Shown here piece by piece: positions 16,980-56,052 of a DNA stretch of 64,000 bases. The notes under the pieces were generated by a model. It was not told where the DNA came from, searched no databases, and saw only the letters and a program-made list of their open reading frames with translations. The DNA comes from Salinigranum rubrum. Lineage in GTDB: Archaea; Halobacteriota; Halobacteria; Halobacteriales; Haloferacaceae. The stretch spans positions 1,426,001 to 1,490,000 of the forward strand of contig NZ_CP026309.1 in NCBI RefSeq assembly GCF_002906575.1. The letters run 5' to 3'. Made by a program: the position numbers and the translations under genes. Position 1 is the first letter of the stretch, and each line of letters starts with the position of its first letter.

Positions 16980-17823
16980 GGTTGTGGATTGGTGGTGGTC
17001 GTGTCGGATGGTCTCGAACCTGTCACTGCTAACCTCTCGAAAATCGCCCGAAACGGGTCGCCACTCCCGCCACGAGCGTCAGAAAACGCGTTTTTTCGGT
17101 TTCGGCGGCGTCGACCCACGCGGGGCTCCCGGCACTACCGAGGGGCCAGTCGCGTCGGACGCAGGTCGGTTCACACTACCATACACGCGCGTTCCCCCTG
17201 TTATAGCTTGCGGGAACGATTGACGAAACTATCGGGTGGACGAGATTGGGACCGGGTGCTGACGGACGCGATGGGCGGAGACTGTACTCATCGAGGGAAG
17301 CGAGAGGGGACAGTATTCGCACAGTACACGGGCGCGATGGACCGCAGCCTCGCCCACCGGAGCAACGGAGTTGCTCCGAGCCGTTCGTTCACTCACTCTG
17401 CTCGTTCACGAAGACCAACCAATTCGGCCGGGACGGAGTCCGGCCGTGACCCTCGCGCGTTCGTTCCGCCCCTTCAGTCGTTCATGCTCACGCACCGGCC
17501 GCCACAGTACGAGTCGGGGCGGTGGCGCGTGACGTCACGCGGGCTTGCCGCGTGACTCACGCGCGAGGGATGAGTGACTGACCGGAGGGAAGGAGCGAAT
17601 CGGCTGGGGAGGGTGAGGCCGCGGCCCACCGCGTTCGTGTACCGTCCCGGTCTTCTCGATTCACCACCCTTCTCGACGGCACTACCTCACGCACCATCGG
17701 CCGAGACACCGATTGCCCCGACCGCTCGCCCTCTCGGAGAACCGCACCCACCCGCATACACCGACCCCTCACGTGCTACTCGGACCGACAACCGTTAGTC
17801 TGTGGGGGCCGCGTCGTTGGGCA
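16980..17823. other. Non-coding stretch of 844 bp between dapA and the NYN gene
   Basis: No convincing gene on either strand. It holds the regulatory region of dapA, a T6 run near 17091-17096, and from 17319 to 17633 a copy of a dispersed, structured intergenic repeat. The reading frames seen here have shadow-type composition and no start signals. Confidence 0.7.
17319..17633 (+). repeat. Dispersed structured intergenic element, copy A
   Basis: Shares ordered blocks with 32434-32696: ACACGGGCGCG, GTTGCTCCGAGCCGTTCGTT, GGTGGCGCGTGACG, TCACGCGCGAGGG and GAGCGAATCGGCTGGGGAGG. Two hairpins are evident. Hairpin 1 (17358-17378): CGGAGCAAC/GTTGCTCCG around GGA. Hairpin 2 (17525-17564): outer stem GCGCGTGA/TCACGCGC, one bulged C, inner stem GTCACGCGG/CCGCGTGAC, loop GCTTG. 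In the other copy the inner stem has a different sequence but is again fully paired. No coding potential is seen. Confidence 0.8.
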
Positions 17824-32309: not shown

Positions 32310-32800
32310 CGGACGGGGATTGACGCGCGGCTTTTTTGAACTCGTCGGAACGCGTGTGGCCGTTCAGTCGGGTGAGCCGCGTATCGAAGCGTGTCGGAGG
32401 GGATGTTGTCGAGTCAGCGAGGAGCAGACGGGCCGCGCGACACACGGGCGCGGCGGACCGCACCCTCACCCGCCGGAGCGACCTCGTTGCTCCGAGCCGT
32501 TCGTTCGGTTCCCTCACGAAAACCTCGCGCGTCCACTCGATTCGCTCGTTCTCACGTGCCGACCGCCCGCAGTAGCCGGAGCGGTGGCGCGTGACGGCGC
32601 GCGCTCTGGAGCGCGCCTCACGCGCGAGGGTTGAGCGAGTGAGCGGAGCGAACGAGCGAATCGGCTGGGGAGGACTGTGGCCTCACCGCGCCCGTGTGCC
32701 ACGCGGTCGCTCTCTCCGCCCGCTCGATCAGCCTTCGCGCACCTGTTTCTCACCACCGACTACACCGTCGCACCGAAACGGTCTGCCCGAAGTCTCCGAC
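32310..32800. other. Non-coding stretch of 491 bp between cysS and the transducer gene
   Basis: Holds the cysS promoter at its left edge and, from 32434 to 32696, copy B of the structured repeat. The last 100 bp before the transducer stop codon show nothing recognisable. Confidence 0.65.
32434..32696 (+). repeat. Dispersed structured intergenic element, copy B
   Basis: Aligns in order with 17319-17633. Hairpin 1 (32474-32494): CGGAGCGAC/GTTGCTCCG, with one A-T of copy A changed to a G-T wobble. Hairpin 2 (32587-32625): the same outer stem GCGCGTGA/TCACGCGC and the same bulged C, but the inner stem is GGCGCGC/GCGCGCC instead of GTCACGCGG/CCGCGTGAC. The right end GAGCGAATCGGCTGGGGAGG is identical in both copies. 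Intergenic, no coding potential. Confidence 0.8.
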
Positions 32801-55632: not shown

Positions 55633-56052
55633 TCGGTTCTGCGGTAGGCTGCGGGCGCCCCCTGAATCGTCGCCGGTCTCACGAGGTGCGGTACTCGTTG
55701 CTGGCTGTGAACCCGCGGAGCGCGTCGACCGAGCAGGGACGGAACGCGAGACTGCGCGGCACCTCCGGTTCCGCTGGAAGCCGGCGCACAGCCCCGGCGA
55801 CGATGCGAGCGAACGCGCGAGGGGCCGCTCGGGGCTCCGTCCGCGAGCACCCGGGTGGGGCGGCCCACCGCCCTGGCGCTCGCGCGGTCTTCGCGCTCTC
55901 GGGCGTCACACCGGAACTGCGCGACACACGCCTCACGGGTACGCGGCCCCTGCTGTACTCGTCACCGGCCCTCTCCGGCCGTCGCTGTTGCTCTCCGACG
56001 TGGTCCACCGAAAAACGCGGAAGTCGTGTCCGTGTCGACCGAAACGGCGTCT
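55633..56052. other. Non-coding stretch of 420 bp between halocyanin and rps3ae
   Basis: No gene is supported. The left part contains a block related to the 28.1 kb intergenic repeat. The right part (55900-56052) shows nothing recognisable. Confidence 0.6.
55740..55806 (+). repeat. Intergenic repeat, copy D
   Basis: GGTTCCGCTGGAAGCCGG (about 55767-55784) is identical to 28111-28128, and both are followed by GC, a short spacer and CCGGCGACG. Flanks differ. A two-copy intergenic family in this window. Confidence 0.6.

Follow-up and report, generated by a model that had tools for sequence, protein, structure and literature searches.

A dispersed intergenic element with paired stems

Two intergenic stretches in the 64-kb piece of the Salinigranum rubrum chromosome analysed here (the window) share ordered blocks and hairpins whose stems differ in sequence and still pair. 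This raises the question of whether the fold is under selection and, if so, in which molecule and on which strand. We found that the two stretches, copies A and B, are two of more than 65 intergenic copies on this chromosome, and that each copy contains a unit of about 110 nt that we call U. Its parts are, in order, an outer stem and a variable one (P2), then GCGAGGGATGAG, then another hairpin (P3), and last a near-invariant block that stays unpaired, GARTCGGYTGGGGAGGNNGWGG.

The earlier note, made from the sequence alone, had claimed that A and B share covarying hairpins, and both hairpins are exactly as it described. Hairpin 2 keeps its outer stem and a bulged C while the inner stem differs and still pairs, reading GCGCGTGA-C-GTCACGCGG..CCGCGTGAC-TCACGCGC in A (17525-17564) and GCGCGTGA-C-GGCGCGC..GCGCGCC-TCACGCGC in B (32587-32625). 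The claim that hairpin 1 keeps pairing despite an A-T to G-T change holds for the stem sequences of A and B (GGAGCAAC/GTTGCTCC versus GGAGCGAC/GTTGCTCC), and so does the claim that the 5' block partly complements the 3' block. What had to be corrected is the placing of hairpin 1 in one element with hairpin 2: hairpin 1 belongs to a separate module of about 55-60 nt whose position varies among copies. A search of this and related genomes returned many more copies with paired stems, so that the observation reaches further than had been stated.

The conserved core of the element is its 3' half, that is U (17519-17620 in A and 32581-32680 in B, both on the plus strand). A typical copy in this genus has two facing U units, which often gives a long inverted mosaic, and is bounded by imperfect terminal inverted repeats of about 33 bp. 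Optional hairpin modules sit at CCTC/GAGG sites, and hairpin 1 is part of one such module, M1.

In copy A, the left end (CACAGTACACGGGCGCGATGGACCGCAGCCTC, 17319-17351) is followed on the minus strand by an inserted M1 (17352-17416), which holds hairpin 1 as GGAGCAAC GGA GTTGCTCC, and by a degenerate left U unit (17417-17512) lying head-to-head with the plus-strand unit. Within the latter, all on the plus strand, are P1/P2 (outer stem GCGCGTGA/TCACGCGC, bulged C, inner stem GTCACGCGG/CCGCGTGAC; 17525-17564), the P3 hairpin ATGAGTGACTGACCGGAGGGAAGGAGCGAAT (17570-17600) and the conserved unpaired block GAATCGGCTGGGGAGG (17597-17612); the right end lies at 17615-17652. Copy B runs in the same order, from its left end (32432-32467) through M1 (32468-32524, minus) and a truncated left U unit (32525-32578, minus) to the plus-strand P1/P2 with inner stem GGCGCGC/GCGCGCC (32587-32625), P3 TTGAGCGAGTGAGCGGAGCGAACGAGCGAAT (32631-32661), block GAATCGGCTGGGGAGG (32658-32673) and the right end (32677-32708). 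The ends of both copies are imperfect terminal inverted repeats and carry no strand. A third, decayed copy on the minus strand (55801-55878) is a left-half remnant; at the orthologous position the congener G166 has an intact copy (L321).

Copy number and distribution

BLAST searches of the host genome gave at least 69 matches with copy A and at least 65 with copy B, these counts being lower bounds since only 40 candidate places were scored per search. With up to three mismatches, the 20-mer GAGCGAATCGGCTGGGGAGG from the 3' half has 65 sites in the host genome compared to 1 for the reversed control. All 65 are found on the main chromosome C1 (4.25 Mb) and none on the other contigs (0.72 Mb), a placement with P about 4e-5 if sites were spread evenly. 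By profile matching the sites fall into 82 clusters, of which some are very short.

Beyond this genus only U is conserved, and the ends differ. The form common to genera consists of GGTGGCGCG, the variable stem P2, GCGCGAGGG, P3 inside ATGA...GAAT, and CGGCTGGGGAGG-NN-GTGG. The 22-base block is present in 135 of 392 Halobacteria genomes and in 41 of 86 genera (0 for the reversed-pattern control), while none of the 312 genomes of the phylum outside the class Halobacteria has it. A single genome can hold up to 120 exact matches. Among 43 congener copies found by BLAST, the block is kept at nearly every position. The presence of U is patchy between genera (named ones with U include Natrinema, Halosimplex, Halococcus, Halogranum, Halobium, Halolamina and Halorussus), and copy number ranges from 0 to 120 among relatives. 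Related stretches are found on a few plasmids, and phage records gave no match related to U. In a viral scan, 24 contigs carry a 15-mer of the block.

The flanking genes of the copies are divergent in 27 cases, convergent in 25 and tandem in 30 in this genome, and divergent in 28, convergent in 33 and tandem in 50 in other genera. Genes were called by a simple codon-usage script and distances are approximate. The copies thus lie between genes without preference for gene orientation, which disfavours a role as terminator, untranslated region or part of an operon; an mRNA 3'UTR or terminator role was rejected because neither genome set shows such a preference.

In two genomes with a single exact block match, from two species (L342/G439 and L343/G382), the block lies just 3' of the proteasome beta-subunit gene. 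It is possible that the block has been retained for a long time at this one site.

Runs of copies on one strand were observed in G399, G193 and G237. In G399, all nine plus-strand copies lie within 0.31-2.55 Mb and all ten minus-strand copies outside it; no copy-strand polarity was found in the complete chromosome of G174. A replication-strand bias may therefore exist in some lineages, being suggestive in G399 and G193 and absent in G174.

One explanation for the distribution is that it is itself the function, with U serving as a site for chromosome organisation or segregation (gyrase, SMC or KOPS-like). The restriction of all 65 motif hits to the main chromosome and the strand runs in some genomes speak for this explanation. 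Against it stand the range of copy number among relatives, the lack of polarity in G174 and the existence of plasmid copies, if few, and we consider it very unlikely.

Covariation in P2 and P3

P3 follows the pattern AT-GA-nn-GA-nn-(GNA)-n'n'-GA-n'n'-GA-AT, in which Watson-Crick steps of 2 bp alternate with tandem G·A pairs over one to four zipper steps. A GNA triloop usually closes the hairpin (35 of 49 loops), and the closing pair is C-G in 40 of 49. In 28 distinct 31-mers, chosen by length and not by pairing, 93.8% of cells are paired compared to 74.6±1.7% after shuffling (0 of 500 shuffles), and the covariation score is 0.573 against 0.194 for shuffled sequences and at most 0.12 for slid registers. 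A joint shuffle of whole 3' strands reached the observed value in 0 of 10,000 cases. Between the G·A steps the dinucleotides covary, whereas the steps themselves are retained in 160 of 168 cells. The P3 zipper would offer a natural example in which covariation surrounds conserved non-canonical pairs, and it may reflect a cytoplasm at molar KCl.

Pairing in P2 is likewise above expectation. In 19 copies from other genera 94.4% of cells are paired (84.9±0.9% shuffled), with 11 pairs changed on both sides, and in 12 copies of the type-1 hairpin with bulged C from this genome the fraction is 88.7% (80.5±1.5% shuffled). Related sequences can beat shuffles; yet the slid controls and the double-change counts are large here. 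At one orthologous pair (L328 versus C1:2060.9k), P2 changes from GGAC/GTCC to GCTC/GAGC and dinucleotide pairs in P3 change with pairing kept.

The proposal in the earlier note that structure is under selection thus draws support from three independent alignments of many further copies, whose stems pair more often than in shuffled sequence, and from the compensatory stem changes at one orthologous locus. Of the two molecules it had offered, RNA or cruciform DNA, the two-stranded cruciform is disfavoured and the choice between RNA and single-stranded DNA remains undecided, as set out below.

Alternatively, intrastrand template switching could keep the arms complementary without selection, as a mutational maintenance of palindromes, and the wholesale change of stems between copies is in line with this idea. 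However, template switching rewrites one arm as the reverse complement of the other, so that G·A/G·A steps would end up as G·C and A·T. It therefore cannot explain P3, where the G·A steps are kept while their neighbours covary. The better folding of the U strand in 119 of 120 copies is a further point against it. We reject template switching for P3 and regard it as all but excluded.

One strand, as RNA or as DNA

Of 120 copies, 119 give a more stable fold for the U strand than for its complement when RNA parameters are used, and 118 do so with DNA parameters, the mean asymmetry being 11 kcal/mol with RNA parameters and 4 with DNA parameters. For P3 alone with DNA parameters the asymmetry is seen in only 25 of 44. 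Departures within stems are more often G·T (35) than A·C (11; P=0.0005). We conclude from the better fold of the U strand and the retained G·A steps that the target of selection is this one strand in its folded form, comprising P1/P2, the GA-zipper P3 and the conserved unpaired block. This is shown by the sequences, without experimental data on function. That the conserved fold points to a function for that strand is our inference from conservation. The evidence for selection on the strand-specific fold is strong, and experiments are feasible in culturable strains.

Tandem G·A steps and G·T wobbles add stability to one strand only, which speaks against a cruciform. We rejected a two-stranded cruciform acting on both strands: T·C mismatches would arise in the complement, whose fold is the weaker one in 119 of 120 copies.

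U may instead be a structured non-coding RNA present in many dispersed copies, or form an RNA domain within transcripts that run in from its neighbours; the conserved purine block would then bind a protein or another RNA. This possible reading is supported by the multi-helix fold with a conserved unpaired block, by the strand-specific G·T and tandem G·A pairs and by the 11 kcal/mol mean asymmetry with RNA parameters. It is weakened by the absence of an Rfam match, the absence of a gene-orientation preference and the use of GNA triloops rather than GNRA tetraloops. Upstream of U we found no consistent promoter-like or TATA-like signal at a fixed distance, though 48 of 111 copies in other genera have no co-directional gene upstream; a promoter of its own was rejected for lack of a clear TATA signal, in what is a weak test.

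PMC6479982 and PMC11101458 are among the papers in which the term "GNA trinucleotide loop" occurs together with "extraordinarily stable DNA". The GNA triloops and the lack of a promoter signal favour single-stranded DNA, while RNA would be in keeping with the G·T wobbles and with the energy asymmetry, and we leave the question undecided.

Gain, loss and remodelling between relatives

The three congeners lack these copies at sites A and B, apart from a remnant of different build that G167 has at A. Of 14 sampled G166 copies, 8 are at positions where S. rubrum has or had a copy, including the decayed one near 55.8 kb. Natrinema mahii and N. thermotolerans share an orthologous U, and only one of the two species has an 87-bp repeat next to it. 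Copies are thus gained, remodelled and lost between congeners, and some persist. At the empty sites the intergenic flanks have diverged too far for an exact insertion boundary or a target duplication to be read.

These empty sites, together with the imperfect inverted repeats of about 33 bp that end copies in this genus, would fit a MITE of the usual sort, a DNA transposon that is non-autonomous and bounded by terminal inverted repeats, with hairpins that are incidental. Other genera, however, conserve only U and have different ends, no target duplication was read at the diverged junctions, and a burst predicts similar copies decaying independently and not stems swapped for other paired stems. 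We find this explanation unlikely.

Two further observations concern extra DNA near these sites. The 87-bp Natrinema repeat (L132:4500-7300:-, query bases 1478-1564) is separate from U, has dozens of matches at 90-100% in N. mahii and relatives, and is missing at the orthologous N. thermotolerans site. The site A gap in G168 (G168:C1:1112811-1117599) contains about 4.8 kb of extra DNA, and the gap is therefore a recurrent insertion place.

Comparison with known systems

Rfam has no family for copy A at E<=5 and none for 8 other loci at gathering score; its only matches in the window are an S15 leader (S15-Halobacteria) and tRNA. In the literature searched we found no paper with the four motif strings in a haloarchaeal context. 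Within these searches the U family is likely undescribed.

The closest likeness is to the REP, BIME and REPIN sequences of bacteria (GTAG and CGTC super-families, PMC3733652; RAYT partners, PMC2817692; REPINs, PMC3116915). Like them, U is intergenic, has many copies, imperfect hairpins, inverted pairs and mosaics, is patchy between species, and has stems with alternative complementary residues. It differs in size (about 110 nt versus 20-40 bp for REP) and in lacking a GTAG or CGTC tag in its consensus, its unpaired blocks being GCGAGGGATGAG and GARTCGGYTGGGGAGGNNGWGG. Two further features set it apart from REP, namely the zipper hairpin of tandem G·A pairs and the conserved block of 22 nt. In the samples searched U occurs only in Halobacteria, and no Y1 transposase accompanies it consistently. 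By analogy, U may resemble REP/BIME functionally in its strand-specific imperfect hairpins, inverted pairs and mosaics, while membership fails on tag and partner. The REP survey (PMC3733652) contains no word beginning with "halo". We found no well-defined archaeal counterpart of bacterial REP/BIME, and the U family is large (41 genera).

The MITEs, PATEs and SMRs of Haloquadratum walsbyi (PMC3119063) are, like U, haloarchaeal, non-coding, mobile and sometimes palindrome-bearing. These families are described as mobile elements grouped by sequence similarity, and the relevant sections of PMC3119063 describe no covarying fold; U spans 41 genera. PATEs are defined by palindromes near their termini, no inverted terminal repeats and no target duplication (PMC3119063); U copies in this genus do have terminal inverted repeats, a MITE-type feature that other genera do not share.

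In integrons, the attC sites are selected for the way one strand folds, and they have extrahelical bases and a terminal stem that varies. U may be likened to them by analogy in all three respects; attC sites occur in cassette arrays and U is dispersed singly or in inverted pairs. TnpB omega-RNAs and IS605 right ends are, like U, structured non-coding sequences in haloarchaea. An omega-RNA would be expected at the 3' end of tnpB; identity of U with one is not supported, as none of the 9 tnpB (PF07282) matches in this genome has U within 1.5 kb.

A proposed REP/BIME-like single-stranded DNA element

The explanation that we put forward, and that could as readily prove wrong as right, is that U is a class-wide haloarchaeal dispersed intergenic element of REP/BIME-like character that works through the fold of one strand as single-stranded DNA. 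We hypothesize that the U strand would be exposed, e.g. at replication forks, and would then fold. The fold and the block GARTCGGYTGGGGAGGNNGWGG would be recognised by an unidentified haloarchaeal protein; this is an inference, and the analysis turned up no such partner. What marks the correct strand would be the bulge together with the tandem G·A steps, like the extrahelical base and strand-specific hairpins of REP and IS200/IS605, and recognition may spread or retain copies. The head-to-head U pairs in this genus would then form BIME-like mosaics with captured hairpin modules.

A Y1 transposase is not supported as partner: Y1_Tnp (PF01797) has no match in the U-rich genomes G021 (18 motif hits) and G168 (10 hits), and in g22 genomes, where U is almost missing, Y1 genes are often present. 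We also rejected a RAYT-like gene between close copies, as the five intervals inspected by eye held housekeeping-like genes, including HMG-CoA reductase, thioredoxin and an ABC transporter.

A bolder reading, against which we lean slightly, is that U is an undescribed class-wide module acting as a folded single strand through its GA-zipper hairpin and an unknown dedicated binding or mobilising protein. If this holds, archaea would possess a novel type of genetic element based on single-stranded DNA (or RNA).

Block spacing and shared modules

The spacing of GG runs in the block GGCTGGGGAGGNNGTGG would permit a two-tetrad G-quadruplex, plausible at molar KCl. Such a quadruplex is possible, and would not be sufficient alone because the C and T between the GG runs are also conserved.

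Module M1 (about 55-60 nt; a hairpin plus GAGCCGTTCGTTCGGTTCCCTCACGAAGACC) occurs in the window at 17352-17416 and 32468-32524 and elsewhere on the chromosome, for example at G000:C1:1616840-1616900. It is present or absent between copies and found in either arm, at CCTC/GAGG sites, and may behave as a small mobile hairpin that inserts site-specifically into larger elements. A second shared module, GGACTGAAAGGGGC...GCAAGCACCGCAG...GGAGCGCAGCGAG, is found just 3' of U in several genera (L140, L156, L172, L173 and L195).
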